From the NCBI RefSeq assembly GCF_902459645.1, contig NZ_CABPSK010000001.1, positions 1,550,001 through 1,614,000 on the forward strand: a DNA stretch of 64,000 nt, in the 5' to 3' direction. This stretch comes from Pandoraea pneumonica (GTDB lineage: Bacteria; Pseudomonadota; Gammaproteobacteria; Burkholderiales; Burkholderiaceae). A program made the translations under genes and the position numbers. The notes under the pieces are model-generated. The model saw nothing but the letters and a program-made list of their open reading frames with translations, ran no database searches and had not been told where the DNA came from. Below, in pieces: positions 1 through 6,919 of this stretch; the stretch's first letter is position 1, and every line of letters begins with the position of its first letter.

Positions 1-733
1 TCTGAATGCCGAGCTGTCGAAGGGCATTCGACGTCAGCGGATTCGATTGCAAGTTCAATTGCAGCGTGTTCATCACCTGCTGCGCGTTGCCTGCGACCTG
101 TACGACCTGCATGATTTGATTCATCGCGCCACCGGCACCGCCCGCCACGCTCTGGCCGAGATTGCCGTTGGGCGTATTCAATGCAATTTGCATGCCTGCG
201 GACGTGATCGCCACGCTCGCGCTCAAATTGCCCACCGTGGTTTGCGAGTTGGTCTGACCTTGTGCGCTGGTGGGCACCAATGTCGTCAGCGACACGCCGG
301 GGGCGTACTGGATGGTGGCCGTGTTGAGCGCGTTATTGGCATTGCCCGCCACTTGCGAGACCTGCGCCACGCCGTTGACCAGTACGCTGGCGGCGCCGGC
401 GACGGCCTGGGTAATTGGGGTGGTCGCGTTCACCACGCCCGGGATGATGCCGGTCGAGGCAGCGGTCTGGACTTGATAGCCCGTGTTGTTGGCGTTCTGG
501 TTCACACCGAGCACGCCGGTGGCCGCGAGACTGGCCCCGGTCGGCATTTGCCATTGCGACTGCATCACGAGCTGAAAGCCGGTGATCATGTTCTGCTGTG
601 CGTATTTGCCGGTGGCTTGTGCAAGCACGTCGTCACCGACGGCCTGCCAGCTATCGGGCACCACGCCCGACGCGAATGCCGGCACGGCACTCACAACGAA
701 CGGAATGGCCAGCATCGGGACGTAACGGTTCAT
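1..733 (-). CDS. Exported Gly/Asn/Gln-repeat protein, FapE/FapB-like, partial (runs off window)
   Basis: Reading the minus strand from the ATG at 733 gives 244 codons with no stop before the window edge, so the C-terminus is missing. Residues 1-21 form a signal peptide ending in a short AFA-type cleavage site. Three degenerate segments rich in V, N, Q, A and G follow at about residues 73-90 (GVLGVNQNANN), 121-138 (GVAQVSQVAGNANN) and 206-222 (IMQVVQVAGNAQQ). These match the repeat style of the two larger proteins upstream in the operon. The gene starts 12 bases after the stop of the C39 peptidase gene, so it is cotranscribed. By position it corresponds to fapE, but the repeat content is closer to a fibre subunit or an assembly partner. 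Function is inferred; the open frame and repeats are directly seen. Confidence 0.8.
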   Translation of the reverse strand, partial: MNRYVPMLAIPFVVSAVPAFASGVVPDSWQAVGDDVLAQATGKYAQQNMITGFQLVMQSQWQMPTGASLAATGVLGVNQNANNTGYQVQTAASTGIIPGVVNATTPITQAVAGAASVLVNGVAQVSQVAGNANNALNTATIQYAPGVSLTTLVPTSAQGQTNSQTTVGNLSASVAITSAGMQIALNTPNGNLGQSVAGGAGGAMNQIMQVVQVAGNAQQVMNTLQLNLQSNPLTSNALRQLGIQ

Positions 734-745
734 GATGTTCTGGTC

Positions 746-1456
746 TCAAAACAGGTTCGACCGGATGATGCCGAAGTCCACCATCGGGGTCGCTGTCGTC
801 CCGGTCGACAAGGCGCTGTCGCGCAACTTGATCGCCTGAGACTCGTTTCCTTTGAGTAGCGGAGAATCCTCCAGGAACGGCTTGCCGATCACCGCCAACA
901 CCAAGCCATTCCACTGCTTGGCAAAATCGGCCTGCTCGATAATTCGGTTGCCCAATGCGGGATCGGACACGAAGATGCGTCCGTCTTTCGCCGCCTTGAT
1001 GAGCACGAAGTGCTGATAACCGTTGACATCGATGAGCGCGATGACCGGAATCTTCAGGTCGTAAAGCGCATTGATGTCTACCTTGAAGCCACGCCCCTCG
1101 AGTCCGAGTGTCTCGACGAATTTCTTCATATCGAGCATCGAGAACCCATTCTTGATGACGGTCTCCGGATTGGAGAAGACCATCATTCGCTTGATCATTT
1201 CCGCCTCGGGAATATCGATCCCGTAGCCGTATTGCAGCAGCGTTGCGAGCGCTGCGGAACCACAACTGAAGTCGTACTGTTGCTGAACCAGATTCACGTA
1301 GTGCATCGATTTGAATGACCGCATCTTCTTGACCGCCGGTACACCAGTCGAAGAATCCAGGTTCACCGATGCATACTGCGCGTGCCCGGCCACGCTTGCG
1401 CACGCCAGAGCGCAAACAGTAGCGATCCGTACTACGGCACGACGCGCATCACTCAT
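746..1456 (-). CDS. Exported C39-family cysteine peptidase, FapD-like
   Basis: A 236-residue protein with a signal peptide (residues 1-27, ending AGHAQ) and a single peptidase C39 domain, without the ABC transporter parts of bacteriocin exporters. The catalytic triad is visible: Cys65 in DFSCGSAAL, His149 in YQHFVLI and Asp165 in SDPALGN. The domain covers about residues 55-195. In Pseudomonas the stand-alone C39 peptidase FapD is an essential part of the Fap amyloid operon, and the position here, directly after the large repeat protein, is the same. The start at 1456 is chosen because GAGGTG lies five bases upstream. An in-frame ATG at 1468 falls at the end of the upstream terminator's T-run and has no ribosome site. 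The processed substrate is unknown. Confidence 0.85.
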   Translation of the reverse strand: MSDARRAVVRIATVCALACASVAGHAQYASVNLDSSTGVPAVKKMRSFKSMHYVNLVQQQYDFSCGSAALATLLQYGYGIDIPEAEMIKRMMVFSNPETVIKNGFSMLDMKKFVETLGLEGRGFKVDINALYDLKIPVIALIDVNGYQHFVLIKAAKDGRIFVSDPALGNRIIEQADFAKQWNGLVLAVIGKPFLEDSPLLKGNESQAIKLRDSALSTGTTATPMVDFGIIRSNLF

Positions 1457-1466
1457 GACACACCTC

Positions 1467-1501
1467 ATGAAAAAACCGGTCCGGGAAGCCCCGGACCGGT
1501 T
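1467..1501 (-). terminator. Strong intra-operon terminator between repeat protein and C39 peptidase genes
   Basis: A perfect 12-bp inverted repeat (1474-1485 with 1490-1501, four-base loop) is followed on the minus strand by a run of six to seven T. It begins 8 bases after the stop codon of the large repeat protein and ends just before the start of the peptidase gene. There is no room for an obvious new promoter, so downstream genes probably depend on readthrough and are made at a lower level. Confidence 0.85.
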
Positions 1502-1508
1502 ATGCACT

Positions 1509-2888
1509 TCACTTGATTGCCGAGATTGCGAGGCTGTTGCTCTGGACGTTGCCGATACCCGATGCCACGTTCACACCGATGTTGCCGGTTGCGCCAGCCA
1601 GGGCACCTGCGCCCAGCGATGCCGTCGCGATGAAGTTGCCCGAAGCTGCCATACCGGCCTTTTGGTCGGTTTGCGCCGTCGAGTTAGCTGCACCACCCGA
1701 GTACCAGCCGCTTGCCCCTTGCGAGACAGCTGCGGCCAGGCCGTTTTGCTGCACGTTGCCGATACCCGATGCCACGTTCACACCGACGTTGCCGCTCGCA
1801 CCGGCAAGGGCACCATCACCCACGCTGGCGTTCACATAGTATTGCGAGAGGCTGGCCGAACCCTTCGACGACTGGTTCGCAAACACCTGAGCCGACGCAT
1901 ACACCGGCTGAGCATTGAGCGAAGCGATCGCGACGTTGTTGGCCTGTGCGTTGTCAGCACCTGCGGCCACGTTCACGCCCATGTTGCCGTTAGCACCGGC
2001 CAACGCACCGCTACCCAGCGTGGCACCCATCGTTTGGTACACAGCCGTGTTGGTGTGGTACGTGATCGCGCCCTTTTCCCACGTCGTTGCCATCGTGTAG
2101 GTATTCGAGAAGCCCCACAGAGCACCGGCGGCAATCGACGCCGAGTTGACCGACGCGCTGCCTTCATCGACATTGGCGTGGAACGCCGCATCGAAGCTCT
2201 TCTGGGTATTCAGGAACCCACCGGCGAGGAAGCCTGCGGCCGACTGCGACTGCTGACCGTAAGCGTAGCCGCCCCAGATCGAGCCTTGACCGGCACCTGC
2301 GTTACCAACGATGTAGCCGCCATAGAGTGCGAGGCCACCCGGCAGCGGAAGAACGCCGCCACCGATGATGCCGCCAGCGGCAGCAATGTTGGAATACTGA
2401 TACCCGCCGCCAGCGATGAAGCCGCCCGAGCCGGAGCTCGACTGACCTGCGATGTAACCAGCGCCAGCCTGGAACGAGCTGTTCGTGTTCAGGTGGCCGT
2501 TGGCCGATGCATTGACCCACGAGTCGGTGTTGTTGAACGTCTTCGTGGTCACACCGCCGATGAGGTAGGCACCGCCGGTATCAGACACCGTGGTGGTCTT
2601 CGAGTCGACGCCATACGTCACGTGTCCCGTCGTGTAGTTGCCGAGCAGCGGCCCCTTCAGGTTCACGTTGTAGACGTCTACGGACTGGCTGCTTTGCACG
2701 ACAGCGTTGCCGGTGTTATCCACCGTGACGCAGCCGCGAATGCCGACCAGACCGAAGATGCCGACCAGGTTCAGCACGTTGGTTTCATTGCCGACGAATG
2801 AGAAGCTGTACTGCTCATGATGGGGTGACGCCATGGCGGTACCCGTTGCTACCAGCAGTGCCGCTGCTGCAATGGCTTTCGTTTTCAT
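1509..2888 (-). CDS. Secreted Gly/Ala/Asn-rich repeat protein, candidate major amyloid subunit (FapC-like)
   Basis: A 459-residue protein with a 20-residue signal peptide. Residues 21-125 are an unrecognised N-terminal domain containing the only cysteine (Cys53). Residues 135-260 are Gly/Ser/Tyr-rich low complexity. The C-terminal third holds three copies of a unit beginning GALAGAxGN and continuing GVNVAxGxxNxQxN, starting near residues 291, 356 and 425 and separated by 35-45-residue linkers. The last copy ends almost at the C-terminus. Three short repeats with long linkers is the plan of Fap fibre subunits. The C-terminal CxxC motif typical of Pseudomonas FapC is absent, so this is at best a distant relative. 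AAGGAG six bases upstream selects the ATG at 2888; the ATG at 2894 directly abuts that site. It precedes the C39 peptidase gene across a terminator, consistent with high subunit expression. Confidence 0.75.
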   Translation of the reverse strand: MKTKAIAAAALLVATGTAMASPHHEQYSFSFVGNETNVLNLVGIFGLVGIRGCVTVDNTGNAVVQSSQSVDVYNVNLKGPLLGNYTTGHVTYGVDSKTTTVSDTGGAYLIGGVTTKTFNNTDSWVNASANGHLNTNSSFQAGAGYIAGQSSSGSGGFIAGGGYQYSNIAAAGGIIGGGVLPLPGGLALYGGYIVGNAGAGQGSIWGGYAYGQQSQSAAGFLAGGFLNTQKSFDAAFHANVDEGSASVNSASIAAGALWGFSNTYTMATTWEKGAITYHTNTAVYQTMGATLGSGALAGANGNMGVNVAAGADNAQANNVAIASLNAQPVYASAQVFANQSSKGSASLSQYYVNASVGDGALAGASGNVGVNVASGIGNVQQNGLAAAVSQGASGWYSGGAANSTAQTDQKAGMAASGNFIATASLGAGALAGATGNIGVNVASGIGNVQSNSLAISAIK

Positions 2889-2918
2889 GACCATCTCCTT
2901 GACGAGAGAGTTACCCAG

Positions 2919-3569
2919 TTAAAAAGATGTGCCCGCCGGGGGACGGAGCACAAAAACATTTGCGGTTACATTGCCTATCCCAGCCGACTGGTTCACTTGC
3001 ACCACCCCGCTCGCGCCCCGGAAAGCGTCACCGGAAATGGACGCCGTACGGAACTGATCGTTGAGGTTGTCGTGCCCAGCCGGGCCACCCTTGGAGATCG
3101 CAGCGGATAGTGCCGTATCCGATACGCTCGCCACTCCAGTCGCATCGCCCATCACAATGACTGTGGCGTTGCGTTGAAGATTGCCGGCACCGCTCGCCTG
3201 GTTCACCTGCACCAGTCCGGACGTGCCTGAAAATGCGTTGCCTTGAATTGATGCGCTCGCAGCGCCTGTGGTGCTCGTGACGACTGCAGCCTGATTGGTA
3301 CTCGAGCCGCCGACGGTCACCGAACCGCCATTGACGATGATTGCGCTGTTGGCCTGTGCGTTATTCAAGCCAGCCGCCTGATTCACCGTCAGTGCGCCGG
3401 TTGCGCCCACTGCCACGCCGCCCTCGATGGTCGCGGTCGTACCCGCGAGCTGGCCGTTCACGATCCACACGTCTTCGGCCGATGCGCCGGTCGCGAAACC
3501 CGCGGCCAAGATCATGGCGACGGCCAGACTGACGCGATTCAGACGGCGGAGATTGCGATGGGCGCTCAT
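2919..3569 (-). CDS. Secreted three-repeat Asn/Gln protein, candidate minor amyloid subunit (FapB-like)
   Basis: A 216-residue protein with a signal peptide of about 31 residues (ending ASA). It carries three clear copies of a 24-residue repeat at residues 51-74, 111-134 and 181-204. Each contains a GxxGxxxVNQxxGxxNxxxN core (for example GVVQVNQSAGIGN). The linkers between copies are 36 and 46 residues and are rich in Ser, Thr, Ala and Val. The protein has no cysteine. The repeat is related to the one in the next gene but has VNQ where that has GVNV. The start codon overlaps the upstream gene's stop codon (ATGA), so translation is probably coupled. By gene order and size it would be the FapB (nucleator) counterpart. 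This is inference from architecture, not from a recognised close homologue. Confidence 0.72.
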   Translation of the reverse strand: MSAHRNLRRLNRVSLAVAMILAAGFATGASAEDVWIVNGQLAGTTATIEGGVAVGATGALTVNQAAGLNNAQANSAIIVNGGSVTVGGSSTNQAAVVTSTTGAASASIQGNAFSGTSGLVQVNQASGAGNLQRNATVIVMGDATGVASVSDTALSAAISKGGPAGHDNLNDQFRTASISGDAFRGASGVVQVNQSAGIGNVTANVFVLRPPAGTSF

Positions 3570-4066
3570 TTGGCGGCTCCTGCTGCACCCAAGCTCATCA
3601 GCGGCGCCAGGGCCGAACTGATGACCGACGGCACCAGCGTGCCGATGCTGCCCACCACGCCCGCACCACCGCCAACCGCACCGCCGACGCTCGACGCGTT
3701 GAGCGCGTTGCCGCCGCTAGCGTTACCCACCAGCACACCCATGACCGGACTGATACCGGATTGCACCGCGCCGGAAACCAAGCCGACCGAGCCACGGCCC
3801 GTCAACTCACCATCCGTTACTTGATTGACTGCCCCCATCGCGGAGCTGAACGGCCCCATCGGGAACGCAGGCACCGACACAGCGATCGGGTTTTCCACTC
3901 GCGGCAACCCACGGCCCACGTATTCCGGCCCGATGTTGCGCTCGACCACGATGTCGCCAGGGGCCGCCGGTTCAGCGCGTGCCGTGGCAGGAAGCAGTGC
4001 CGGGGCGAGTGCCAAGAGCATCGTGGCAAACCCGCTGGCAGCCTGCATCGCTGAAATGTTGATCAT
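3566..4066 (-). CDS. Small exported Gly/Val/Ser-rich protein of the amyloid-like operon
   Basis: A 166-residue protein. Residues 1-31 are a signal peptide (hydrophobic core MLLALAPALL, then ATARA). The mature part is Pro-rich at first (residues 33-70), then has the motif VTDGELTGRG at about 83-92, then Gly/Ser/Val/Ala-rich low complexity to the C-terminus. I do not recognise a family. The DGELxxRG motif resembles DDEQLGNQRG in the preceding gene, suggesting both proteins share a partner or processing step. The start at 4066 lies five bases after the upstream stop codon. The stop overlaps the next start by four bases. The longer frame to 4177 would lie inside the upstream gene and is not used. 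Confidence 0.65.
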   Translation of the reverse strand: MINISAMQAASGFATMLLALAPALLPATARAEPAAPGDIVVERNIGPEYVGRGLPRVENPIAVSVPAFPMGPFSSAMGAVNQVTDGELTGRGSVGLVSGAVQSGISPVMGVLVGNASGGNALNASSVGGAVGGGAGVVGSIGTLVPSVISSALAPLMSLGAAGAAK

Positions 4067-4071
4067 GTCGT

Positions 4072-4692
4072 TCACCGGGTGGTGTAGGTCACGCGGGTGA
4101 CCTGAACGTTGTTCACACCGTTCGACAGTTGCTGCGGACGCGGCGTCGGCGTCACAGCGCCGGGCAGTTCGTCCCACAGCGTCACGCCATTGGCGAGCGT
4201 CATGCCGGGTGACTTGACCATCGTGCCGCCCTGCAAATTGCGGCCGCGTTGGTTGCCGAGTTGTTCGTCGTCGATGCGCGCGGCGGCAAGCGGTACCTTG
4301 CTCAGGACGGCATCGTTGCTGCTATTCGTGCTGCTGTCGTCGCTGCTGGCGACGGCGGCGGGTTCGGTGGCCGATTCGGAGGCCGAGCCGTTGGCGACGT
4401 CATTCGTGCTGACGGCGGCCGGCGCTTGCATGGCGATCGGTGCAGCGGGCACGGCCACGTCAGCATCGCTGATCGGGGCTGCCGTCATCATGGGCGTCGA
4501 GAGCGTCATCGACTGCGGCACCATGGAGCCCGTGAGCATCGCAATCTGCATGAGCGGAGCGCGCAGTGCGGGTACTGCATCCTGCGCCTGCGCGGGTGCA
4601 GCGCACAGACCGAGTGCCACGACGATGGCAGCGCCCACGGCGCTCGCGCCTTGTCGTACTCGGTATTGCATTTCGGTGGTGAGAATTCGCAT
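4072..4692 (-). CDS. First gene of the amyloid-like operon: small exported Ala/Met/Ser-rich protein
   Basis: A 206-residue protein with an N-terminal signal peptide (about residues 1-36, ending AQAQ). The mature chain is rich in Ala, Met, Pro and Ser up to residue 130 and likely disordered. It then has the motif RIDDEQLGNQRGR (139-151) followed by a GG pair at 155-156, and ends in LSNGVNNVQVTRVTYTTR-type sequence. No family is recognised. It occupies the promoter-proximal place of fapA. The start at 4692 is set by AGGAGGG eight bases upstream and by the sigma-54 promoter at 4722-4737; the longer frame to 4740 would begin upstream of the transcription start. Confidence 0.65.
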   Translation of the reverse strand: MRILTTEMQYRVRQGASAVGAAIVVALGLCAAPAQAQDAVPALRAPLMQIAMLTGSMVPQSMTLSTPMMTAAPISDADVAVPAAPIAMQAPAAVSTNDVANGSASESATEPAAVASSDDSSTNSSNDAVLSKVPLAAARIDDEQLGNQRGRNLQGGTMVKSPGMTLANGVTLWDELPGAVTPTPRPQQLSNGVNNVQVTRVTYTTR

Positions 4693-4721
4693 CGCTGTGC
4701 CCTCCTTGCCCGGGTCTATAA

Positions 4722-4737
4722 AGCGACTTCCGTGCCA
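4722..4737 (-). promoter_or_regulatory. Sigma-54 (RpoN) -24/-12 promoter of the amyloid-like operon
   Basis: The minus strand reads TGGCACG, four bases, TCGCT. Compared with the consensus TGGCACG-N4-TTGC(A/T), the -24 box is perfect and the -12 box differs at one base. The invariant GG and GC pairs are present with the canonical ten-base spacing. The predicted transcription start is near 4711, leaving a leader of about 18 bases that contains the AGGAGGG ribosome site of the first gene. The adjacent sigma-54 activator gene fits as its regulator. Confidence 0.85.
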
Positions 4738-4740
4738 CAA

Positions 4741-5497
4741 CGCTCAAGTGCTTGAAAACATGGGGACTTTTATTTTCGAGAGGCGCGCGCGGCGGGTGCG
4801 TCGTCCGAAAACGTTTCAGCATTGATACGTGGGGGGGTTCCGGCCACTTTTGTCACGCTTGTGGCGTCGCCGGGAGACGTTCCGAACCACGAGGGATGTC
4901 GGCGTGGTCAACGACGTCTTTCGGAAATGCCCTATACACAAGGGTCTCGCGTGACAGATTTGCGGCAGAATCCGCCCGCTCCGCGTAAACGACATCGGAG
5001 CGTCACACGCGGCGCCGGGAAACACGAAGCCCGCGCGCGCCCCGGATGTTTCATCTTTGATGACTTCGCGGGTCTACCCGTAGCACCCGCCACCGCCAAA
5101 ACTTCGTACCCCTCTCGACATGTCCGCCACGTGACGACGCTGTGACCTCACCGTGATGGCAACGTGATGACACCGAGATGGCAGCGGCCATGCGCGCGCC
5201 GCCATCTCGACGTGCGATCCCTCGTGATTCGAGACAACGCAATGCGTACGGCAATACCCGCTGGGAGGCCCGCCCCACGGGCCTGCGGCGGCGCAACGTT
5301 TTTGGCGATGGCACGATTCGCGAATCGCGAATACGCGGGAAATTGGCGGGAAATCAGCAGGAAAATCGACGGGAAAATGCGGGGAAAAATGCGGCCCAAA
5401 GTCAGACGATCGAGGCGTTTCGTAGGGCGATGGCGACGGCATTTTTGTGCCGAGATGGATGGCATAACGTGCTGCCGACGCGGCATATTCAGGAGCC
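4741..5497. other. Long intergenic region between the activator gene and its putative target operon
   Basis: I find no convincing gene in these roughly 760 bases: the short open frames on either strand lack ribosome sites and recognisable protein character. The stretch probably holds upstream activator sites for the sigma-54 promoter at its left end. It includes a palindrome ATTCGCGAAT at 5316-5325 and a phased GGGAAA array at 5337-5388, described separately. Confidence 0.5.
5337..5388. repeat. Five helically phased GGGAAA/AGGAAA boxes
   Basis: GGAAA occurs at 5338, 5349, 5360, 5372 and 5383, that is at 11, 11, 12 and 11 base intervals, each followed by A or T and mostly preceded by G. The boxes face one side of the helix. 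They lie about 600 bases upstream of the sigma-54 promoter. They could be a protein-binding array or curved DNA; no known site is recognised. Confidence 0.55.
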
Positions 5498-5537
5498 CAA
5501 AAAGAAACGACCGCCCTGCTCATCACAGGACGGTCGC
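5498..5537 (-). terminator. Terminator of the sigma-54 activator gene
   Basis: A 10-bp stem with one G-T wobble (5509-5518 with 5526-5535) is followed on the minus strand by TTTCTTTTT. It lies about 20 bases after the activator's stop codon, so the activator is a single-gene transcript separate from the downstream operon. Confidence 0.8.
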
Positions 5538-5557
5538 CCTCTCTTCGCCAGAAGATA

Positions 5558-6919
5558 TCAGGCCGGCACGCCCGATTCGTCACCACGCAATCCATATCGA
5601 CACATCAGCCGATACAGGGTAATCCGAGAAATTCCCAACTCCGCCGCCACGTCGGTCAGACGATGACAGTGGCGCAACAATGCCTGCTCGATGGCAATTC
5701 GTTCGGCCTCCGTACGAATTTCTTCGAGCGTGCGAACCAGCGTCGGCACCCACGGCAACAGGTCGAGATCCTTCGCTGAAATCATGCGGCTGTCGGCCAT
5801 CACGATGGCACGGCGAACGCGGTTGATGAGCTCCCGGACATTGCCGGGCCAGTGGTATTCGTACATCGCCTGCACCGCGCACTGCGTGAAGCCGCGAATC
5901 TTGCGATGGTTATCGCCTTTGAATCGTTGCAGCACGTGGTGCGCCAGAATTTCGATGTCTTGCCCGCGCGCACGCAGCGGCGGTTCGTCGACGCGCAGCA
6001 CGCACAGGCGGTGATACAGATCGACGCGGAAACGCCCGTCTTTCACGGCTTCCTCGAGATCGACGTGCGTGGCCGAAATGACGCGCACGTTCACCGGAAT
6101 GACATCGTGGCCACCCAGACGCTCGATCGCGCCTTGTTGCAGAAAGCGCAGCAGACTGGCCTGGCTCTCGATCGGCAGGTCGCCGATTTCGTCGAGGAAC
6201 AACGTGCCGCCGTTGGCCGCTTCCACCCGGCCGATCTTGCGGGCGTTAGCCCCCGTGAAAGCGCCGCGCTCGTAGCCGAACAGTTCGGATTGCATCAGGT
6301 GCGGCGGAATCGCGCCGCAATTGATCGCGACGAACGGCCCCTTGGCACGCAAAGAGCGCTCGTGAATCGCCACCGCACTCAGTTCCTTGCCAGTGCCCGA
6401 TTCGCCCGAGATGAACACGGGCGCGTCGGTATTGGCCACTTTGCGGATGGTGCGAAACAGCAGTTGCATCGCCTCGCAGGTGCCGACCATTTCCTGATCG
6501 CCACCGACTTGCGGCGTGAAGATGACGGGCACCTCGGAGAGCGAGGCCATGCCCCAGGCGTGACCGATCGAATGCGCGAGCTGATCGTTCGTGCACGGGA
6601 CGTTCACATAGTCGAAGCAATAGTCGCGGATCAGCCGACGTACCGAAGTGGTCGTCAACTGTTGCGGATTCGTCGCAGCCACCCAGCCGACCGTTGCCGG
6701 CTGCATACAGGACTCAAACGCGCCCATCTCGCGATCGGTATAACCGCTCGCCAGGTCGATGAGTGCTGCGCTGGTAACCCCGGGATTGAGAATGCGACTG
6801 ACGTCGCTGGCGCTCTTGGCCGGCACAACCTGCCAGCCCTGCTCCCCCAAAAACGACAGCAAGCCGTCGTTGTGCTTTCGGGAAGCGTAAATCAGGGTGC
6901 GCCCGGTATCGTTAGCCAT
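5558..6919 (-). CDS. Sigma-54-dependent activator with degenerate receiver domain (VpsR/FleQ-like)
   Basis: A 453-residue bacterial enhancer-binding protein. Residues 1-125 resemble a receiver domain. Asp55 (ALIDL) lies near the usual phosphorylation position, but the conserved Lys near residue 105 is replaced by a VNVPC stretch, so phosphorylation may not be the signal. The AAA+ domain has Walker A GESGTGKE (172-179), the sigma-54-contacting GAFTGA loop (219-224) and Walker B GGTLFLDE (237-244). A Fis-type helix-turn-helix ends the protein (about 410-445). VpsR and FleQ, which share this plan, respond to cyclic-di-GMP and control biofilm matrix genes. Ligand binding here is inference. GGGAG nine bases upstream supports the ATG at 6919. 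It is encoded just upstream of an operon with a sigma-54 promoter, its likely target. Confidence 0.9.
   Translation of the reverse strand: MANDTGRTLIYASRKHNDGLLSFLGEQGWQVVPAKSASDVSRILNPGVTSAALIDLASGYTDREMGAFESCMQPATVGWVAATNPQQLTTTSVRRLIRDYCFDYVNVPCTNDQLAHSIGHAWGMASLSEVPVIFTPQVGGDQEMVGTCEAMQLLFRTIRKVANTDAPVFISGESGTGKELSAVAIHERSLRAKGPFVAINCGAIPPHLMQSELFGYERGAFTGANARKIGRVEAANGGTLFLDEIGDLPIESQASLLRFLQQGAIERLGGHDVIPVNVRVISATHVDLEEAVKDGRFRVDLYHRLCVLRVDEPPLRARGQDIEILAHHVLQRFKGDNHRKIRGFTQCAVQAMYEYHWPGNVRELINRVRRAIVMADSRMISAKDLDLLPWVPTLVRTLEEIRTEAERIAIEQALLRHCHRLTDVAAELGISRITLYRLMCRYGLRGDESGVPA

Follow-up and report, generated by a model that had tools for sequence, protein, structure and literature searches.

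A fap functional amyloid operon of Pandoraea pneumonica with an additional first gene and a leader-like motif in FapE and FapX

Do the linked genes for exported repeat proteins and a C39 peptidase at one end of a Pandoraea pneumonica sequence encode the Fap functional amyloid known from Pseudomonas or a fibre of a separate kind, and what would the peptidase, FapD, act on? The window, that is, the whole stretch of 64,000 nucleotides analysed here (contig NZ_CABPSK010000001.1, positions 1,550,001 to 1,614,000; G000:C1:1550001-1614000 in our numbering), comes from a genome of 5.85 Mb, and the genes run over its left edge into the left-hand flank, designated L004. Judged by homology and gene order, the locus is a true Fap functional amyloid operon and not just a Fap-like one. 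The operon is ordinary in kind, and its regulatory layer is already known in outline; what looks new are two additions for which we found no description in the open-access literature searched, namely, an extra first gene, named fapX here, and a motif in FapE and FapX that resembles the leaders read by C39 peptidases. We consider it quite probable that a complete fapX-A-F operon, a sigma-54-dependent switch and the reading of the leader-like motif by FapD together account for the locus.

Gene set, gene order and pore

Genes 2 to 6 and the pore gene match the NCBIfam models FapA to FapF in canonical order (E values of 2e-6, 4e-24, 1e-16, 1e-57, 2e-14 and 1e-111, respectively), bearing out the parallel to Pseudomonas FapB, FapC, FapD and FapE that a prior model reading of the letters (the sequence-only reading) had drawn. 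That reading had recommended looking for a FapF-like pore beyond the left edge, and one was found there: FapF matches the solved pore (PDB FapF 5o65, 6.4e-78) over residues 143-443, i.e., the barrel, and its periplasmic coiled coil was assessed by visual inspection alone. FapD retains the catalytic Cys and His, and the ordered fapABCDEF set, the FapF pore and the Fap repeats of FapB and FapC are all present. The six linked minus-strand genes of the sequence-only reading, like the activator, are open frames on that strand where it had placed them. All 18 of the 18 Pandoraea loci examined keep relatives of these genes in one arrangement (activator-fapX-A-B-C-D-E-F-small protein-LuxR; the FapC match covers the repeats only in L020 and the last half in L008), so that the gene set is not a chance assembly.

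One result weighs against this identification: none of the six Fap proteins reaches its own NCBIfam equivalog cut-off. However, given that the FapF cut-off is reached by 0 of 299 Burkholderiaceae genomes, it seems to be a naming threshold that parts off Pseudomonas-type equivalogs and does not divide Fap from non-Fap. Fap has already been reported in Burkholderia (PMC3792158) and Pandoraea (PMC6173800), and the idea of a distinct betaproteobacterial biofilm-fibre system, put forward in the sequence-only reading, was dropped once the pore had been found; the evidence points to Fap itself.

The features are as follows, in window positions unless a flank coordinate is given:

5558..6919, minus strand: activator, a bacterial enhancer-binding protein (bEBP); Pfam Sigma54_activat 4e-68, VpsR 1e-21, HTH_8 1e-7; in the clade of fap-linked activators
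4722..4737, minus strand: sigma-54 (-24/-12) promoter element TGGCACGGAAGTCGCT; TGGCAC-N5-TCGC, 29 bases before the fapX ATG
4072..4692, minus strand: fapX (name coined here), first gene, exported protein of 206 residues with a C39-leader-like motif and an LWDE motif
4240..4275, minus strand: leader-like motif IDDEQLGNQRGR in FapX; score 18.4 with a matrix trained on FapE only, reached by 0 of 1000 shuffles
4168..4185, minus strand: VTLWDE motif of the FapX family, a sequence motif
3566..4066, minus strand: fapA, divergent, second gene; NCBIfam FapA E 2.2e-6 (28 bits; cut-off 110)
2919..3569, minus strand: fapB, minor amyloid subunit; NCBIfam FapB E 3.8e-24; three VNQxxGxxNxxxN repeats
1509..2894, minus strand: fapC, major amyloid subunit; NCBIfam FapC E 1.2e-16; N-terminal region of about 250 residues, then three repeats
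746..1468, minus strand: fapD, exported C39 peptidase; NCBIfam FapD 1.1e-57, Pfam C39 5e-26; QYDFSCG, YQHFV, VSDPA
1..733, minus strand, ending 35 bases past the left edge (L004:11966): fapE; NCBIfam FapE 1.9e-14
602..640, minus strand: leader-like motif VGDDVLAQATGKY, directly after the FapE signal peptide; FapE motif columns and matrix
L004:11581-10250 = G000:C1:1549581-1548250, minus strand, outside the window: fapF pore; NCBIfam FapF 1.3e-111, PDB FapF 5o65 6.4e-78

The activator is separated by 820 bases from the downstream stretch with the sigma-54 element and the seven genes fapX-A-B-C-D-E-F. The ATG at 4692, which stands behind the promoter, is a likelier start of fapX than the TTG at 4740. 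The front of the operon had been said to hold two unrecognised proteins; the first, FapX, indeed lacks a name, but its neighbour can be recognised as FapA, albeit a divergent one (E 2e-6). The repeats of FapE are degenerate by eye. Past fapF follow a divergent small exported protein, the second in the locus with an LWDE motif, and a LuxR-type regulator (L004:9363-8638), kept there in 18 of 18 Pandoraea loci, whose helix-turn-helix scores against NCBIfam CsgD at 6.6e-10, which recalls the VpsR-VpsT pair named in PMC5552954.

The loci compared were 24 from the named collection plus L004, 17 from strong FapF matches of the class draw (own locus excluded), 20 of the 90 family FapF matches, 16 of the 17 weaker class FapF matches (one tiny contig omitted), 12 chosen from 21 FapE-positive genomes of the phylum draw, and one Aeromonas record. 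FapF is present in 30 of 32 same-genus genomes (of the two without it, one has 1.2 Mb and the other 3.6 Mb). At the family level 90 of 299 genomes have it (E <= 1e-60), and at the class level 33 of 369 (E <= 1e-30), some of the latter with loci devoid of FapB and FapC. At one locus, L180 (G741:C78, 2739-14499), fapB-C-D-E is duplicated in tandem; both sets are preceded by a fapX-like frame and a sigma-54 element, and they share one fapF and one activator; L183 and L184, from another class of the phylum, contain fapB-C-D-E-F, and no linked activator was found there.

A leader-like motif in FapE and FapX

Directly after the signal peptide, FapE carries the consensus [V/L]-x-D-x-x-[L/M]-x-x-x-[R/T]-G-[K/R]-[Y/F] (61 FapE from 62 loci, 40 distinct stretches), in which, by weight, G, K/R (K 68%, R 32%) and L/M each make up 100% of their columns, V/L 92% and D 85%. 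When G is counted as -2, the hydrophobic -12 and the L/M at -7 coincide with positions read in C39 leaders, which have the form Leu(-12)-X3-Glu(-8)-Leu(-7) before GG, GA or GS, with -4, -7 and -12 lying in the groove (PMC6363468); thus, the FapE columns show the hydrophobic -12, the L at -7 and the G at -2 of such leaders. The matrix, trained on FapE only, was applied to FapE of the phylum draw (21 of 398 genomes FapE-positive; 22 loci, 4 from training genomes), and all 18 proteins from outside the training genomes, a few of them near-copies of training sequences, score 23.6 to 36.5, the highest score in 4000 shuffled open reading frames (ORFs) being 17.2. Seven of these 18, which probably belong to Pseudomonas, exceed the NCBIfam FapE cut-off, e.g., ELKDAEMAELRGRY, with L at -12, E at -8, M at -7, L at -4 and G at -2; the motif of Aeromonas caviae FapE is ELADGELAHLRGRY. 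Natural FapE stretches of 20-21 residues match just the NCBIfam FapE model, at positions 26-44, a probe that the scored phylum sequences have superseded.

The motif is a candidate recognition tag for FapD, and we infer cleavage after G-K/R. Mutation C38A in FapD abolishes FapC secretion, and the first ~70 residues of FapE gave no peptides (PMC5557850). According to a 2025 review (PMC12822426), FapD presumably acts on the N-terminal end of FapE and on the part of FapF that lies in the periplasm; for the FapE-processing view, the motif would give a concrete site. Three points weigh against it. Position -1 is K/R in FapE instead of G/A/S, and this basic P1 is the main doubt on cleavage of the FapE leader; -8 is V or E, often V, and -4 mostly Q, M or A, which departs from C39 leaders; and PMC5557850 says that the Fap proteins lack canonical C39 sequences.

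A further comparison comes from 16 loci without FapB and FapC. A FapD-like gene is present in 15 of them (the exception, L134, is a short contig), and 7 have a linked activator. Thirteen of the 15 encode, next after FapD, a protein with RGG, the canonical ending, which does not occur in the training set; no other observation supports a leader function as strongly. A signal-like stretch, recognised by a crude rule, together with a motif score of at least 8 is found in 22 of 215 same-strand ORFs within 1.5 kb of FapD and in 0 of 1588 other ORFs, and 14 of the 15 loci have such an ORF; the p-value of 2e-21 is generous because the near set is confined to the same strand whereas the remainder takes in both, along with shadow frames. 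Cupriavidus metallidurans CH34 adds a miss that counts against the proposal, having no motif beside its FapD- and FapF-like genes and just an unrelated frame at 11.2. In L129, L131, L132, L133, L135, L138, L139 and L144, the C39 gene is preceded by genes for small exported proteins that terminate in a single Fap-like stretch, e.g., VIQNSGNNVIIQNATIVN, and are perhaps akin to a one-repeat FapB; the protein after FapD gives weak matches to Pfam RHIM, an amyloid motif (E 0.012 in L131, 0.06 in L138).

By its sequence, FapX belongs to an unnamed exported family with a signal peptide, the leader-like motif, then [V/I]-x-L-W-D-E and an end bearing N/Q (the end judged by eye), to which we refer as LWDE. 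FapX has no Pfam family and NCBIfam matches only at E 0.017 and worse; nine further LWDE-family proteins have no NCBIfam match at E 0.1, and one has only Pfam matches, at 0.016 and 0.024. By a rule combining LWDE with a motif score of at least 6, a low bar, FapX occurs in 47 of 74 fap loci and in 26 of 53 outside Pandoraea. Scoring all 7841 ORFs from 62 loci with the FapE-only matrix placed FapX in 29 of the top 31 non-FapE positions and FapF in the other two; 17 of the 29 come from Pandoraea, near-copies from that genus making up more than half, and two were first labelled 'other' and later recognised by LWDE. In a test on 14 hand-picked FapX-like frames with 1000 shuffles each, at most one shuffle reached the real score in eight frames, 4 in L092 and 5 in L182. 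Paraburkholderia-type FapX such as L022-L028 have G/A/S at -1. The divergent small protein past fapF shares LWDE, and L020 and L122 are the only loci in which its motif score is 6 or more.

Several observations tell against a functional motif in FapX. Unrelated frames score by chance up to 16.6-18.8, so that the matrix alone is not specific at the FapX level; the motif is weak in L107, the second copy of L180 and L130 (12, 14 and 30 of 1000 shuffles) and shows no signal in the L138 frame (540 of 1000). In Pandoraea it lies more than 100 residues past the signal peptide, and the LWDE rule finds no FapX in the probable Pseudomonas loci L176-L179. Alternatively, FapX could be a FapA-like chaperone or regulator whose leader-like motif has no function: it occupies the fapA position, and seven fapX loci outside Burkholderiaceae (L092-L094, L102, L104, L107, L182) have no FapA by a Burkholderiaceae-based profile. 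We regard this as unlikely, although it is the best of the alternatives considered, because FapX and FapA co-occur in Burkholderiaceae and in L180, FapX heads the motif ranking of non-FapE ORFs, the L180 FapX carries RGRF, and the FapE profile matches the L182 FapX at 2.5e-6.

A somewhat less credible possibility is that the motif is a docking stretch, bound but not cut by FapD or FapF, the essential FapD cut falling elsewhere, e.g., in the FapF linker. The K/R at -1, unusual for C39, speaks for docking, as do the processing of the FapF linker suggested in PMC5557850 and the five FapF frames (L092, L094, L095, L183, L184) that score above 11. In L095, L183 and L184, the stretch apparently falls within the linker that joins the coiled coil to the barrel, in keeping with the published idea that FapF may be cut by FapD; in L092 it is probably inside the coiled coil. 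However, FapF as a whole lacks the motif (60 frames, median -0.7), a canonical GG occupies the corresponding position in 13 of the 15 FapD/FapF loci without FapB and FapC, and mass spectrometry gave no FapE N-terminal peptides (PMC5557850). With only five FapF frames above 11, the linker was set aside as a general FapD target.

Activator, promoter element and amyloid subunits

The sequence-only reading had credited the operon with its own VpsR/FleQ-like activator and sigma-54 control, and the adjoining gene and the element before fapX agree with this. The activator combines a VpsR domain, an AAA+ domain with GAFTGA and a Fis helix-turn-helix, and can be classed on these grounds as a putative BrfA/VpsR-type sigma-54 bEBP: the GAFTGA, the position next to fap and the sigma-54 element are all found. 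The VpsR domain is present in 19 of 23 aligned activators; one of the 23 (in L115) is RtcR-type and was later not counted as linked. Such an activator lies within 2.5 kb in 68 of 74 loci with FapB and FapC, and in 47 of 53 outside Pandoraea. A phylogenetic tree was built from 80 sequences, leaving aside most of the copies from Pandoraea and an eighth paralogue that gave no frame; in it, an edge with support 0.956 parts seven own-genome paralogues from 71 linked activators and two unlinked orthologues. Fourteen Burkholderiaceae loci (L023, L024, L026, L110-L112, L116, L117, L120, L124-L128) have two paralogous activators, one divergent upstream and one downstream of fapF, and the tree separates both kinds. 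In L106 another gene of the genome matches better than the linked activator.

If a single departure is tolerated (9/10 match; background 0.07 expected per 1.7 kb region), 43 of the 61 loci have a sigma-54 element ahead of fapB, namely, 23 of the 25 in L004-L028 and 20 of the 36 others; L105 and L108 lacked the stretch before fapB that such a search needs. Weaker 8/10 matches, seen in 14 of the 18 remaining loci, were discarded because the background is then ~0.65 per 1.7 kb. In Pseudomonas fluorescens PF07, fapA has an RpoN promoter, brfA lies beside the cluster, and deletion of brfA or rpoN lowers fap expression (PMC9207406); PF07 BrfA is reported to sense or bind cyclic di-GMP (c-di-GMP; PMC13101488). 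A FleQ c-di-GMP motif was not seen in the Pandoraea activator, inspected by eye only.

Sigma-54 control is nevertheless open to objections. Linked activators are absent in 6 of the 74 fap loci (L098, a cut piece at a contig end, L113-L115, L183 and L184). The probable Pseudomonas loci L176-L179 show no sigma-54 element, even at a lower stringency with a TGGCA box, which led us to lower our confidence in the overall explanation slightly. It could be argued that the neighbouring activator governs other genes and that fap is transcribed by sigma-70: in genus g295, 3 of 3 genomes have their best match to the activator at a place not linked with fap, 18 of the 61 loci have no element at the stringency used, and the 0.38-kb gap between fapE and fapF may hold another promoter. 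We judge this very improbable, given the linkage in 68 of 74 loci, the conservation of both sigma-54 boxes between Pandoraea and Paraburkholderia while the spacer changes, and the PF07 genetics (PMC9207406).

The major amyloid subunit also differs from that of Pseudomonas. All three strict repeats of FapC lie within its last 159 residues. The protein has one Cys and, as the sequence-only reading had noted, no CxxC, a FapC feature noted for Pseudomonas in PMC6173800; this absence is not distinctive, however, since 5 of 61 FapC frames have CxxC and its lack is frequent outside Pseudomonas-type loci, so that CxxC loss was dropped as a special feature. Of four Pseudomonas-type frames inspected as well, L176 and L177 have CxxC near the C-terminus. 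The large N-terminal region singled out in the same reading is real: a profile finds it in 14 of 20 further family loci (L110-L112, L116, L117, L120-L128). The FapC family profile matches solved FapC (9u4u at 6e-19, and 9nqd) over residues 276-458, the repeats, only, and its search found no solved relative of the N-terminal region. AlphaFold2 modelling of the region with 20 sequences gave no usable model (mean predicted local distance difference test score 29.6). In Pandoraea terrae (L020), FapC has 259 residues and lacks the large N-terminal region while keeping three repeats and one Cys. That an unrelated adhesin or fibre system has come to resemble Fap by convergence, as scores below curated cut-offs, the lack of CxxC and the unusual FapC N-terminal region might suggest, is hardly credible in view of the FapF (1e-111; PDB FapF 6e-78) and FapD (1e-57) matches, the canonical gene order and the match of the repeats to solved FapC.

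Proposed mechanism and comparison with known systems

We propose that sigma-54 RNA polymerase would start transcription at the -24/-12 element before fapX, the adjoining BrfA/VpsR-type bEBP switching the operon on, probably, by analogy, in response to c-di-GMP. All Fap products would reach the periplasm through Sec, where FapA, a chaperone in Pseudomonas, would keep the subunits soluble. The periplasmic C39 peptidase FapD would recognise the leader-like stretch (hydrophobic -12, L/M -7, G -2, then K/R or G) and cut after the FapE signal peptide and further along FapX; FapE and FapX so cut would permit or direct the passage of FapB and FapC to the outside by way of the FapF trimer, resulting in a fibre.

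On a broader proposal we are evenly divided. FapD and FapF might be the core of a general two-step export route comprising Sec, a C39 peptidase that reads a double-glycine-type leader and a pore of the FapF type, a route frequently accompanied by a dedicated VpsR/BrfA-type activator; the Fap amyloid would then be a branch whose FapE leader has drifted to G-K/R. FapX would be a further substrate, the C-terminal piece of which (LWDE and an N-x-Q end like half a Fap repeat) could, once cut, cap, anchor or nucleate the fibre at its end.

FapD activity is essential to Fap secretion, and its substrate is described as yet to be determined in PMC6173800. A conserved FapE tag that fits C39 recognition would make this question directly testable, and FapX would add an unrecognised component to a well-studied biofilm amyloid.

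Among known systems, the putative pilus proteins FilB and FilC of NCBIfam are matched by Pandoraea FapD (1.9e-36) and FapF (1.5e-11), far more weakly than the FapD and FapF models. The activator resembles, by description only, BerB of Burkholderia cenocepacia, a GAFTGA bEBP with RpoN dependence that controls the biofilm matrix; unlike it, BerB acts on an exopolysaccharide regulator and is reported to have no N-terminal input domain (PMC5552954). BrfA of PF07 is, by its published description, fap-adjacent, Fis-type and RpoN-dependent like the Pandoraea activator, with a fap promoter of the -24/-12 type (PMC9207406, PMC13101488), but its gene lies downstream and reversed whereas the Pandoraea gene lies upstream on the same strand. 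With LahT/ComA-type C39 substrates (PMC6363468), the motif shares the spacing of the hydrophobic -12 and -7 and the G at -2, whereas Fap proteins leave the cytoplasm through Sec, so that their processing would be periplasmic, and FapE has K/R at -1. From Pseudomonas Fap, the Pandoraea operon differs in its extra first gene, in the FapC repeats, which cluster at the C-terminal end after a region of 250 residues, in the lack of CxxC, and in the second LWDE protein and LuxR-type gene downstream. It shares with Pseudomonas Fap the six homologous genes in order, the three-repeat FapB and FapC, a catalytic FapD, the FapF pore, the adjoining bEBP and the FapE leader motif, present also in the seven FapE above the cut-off that are probably from Pseudomonas.

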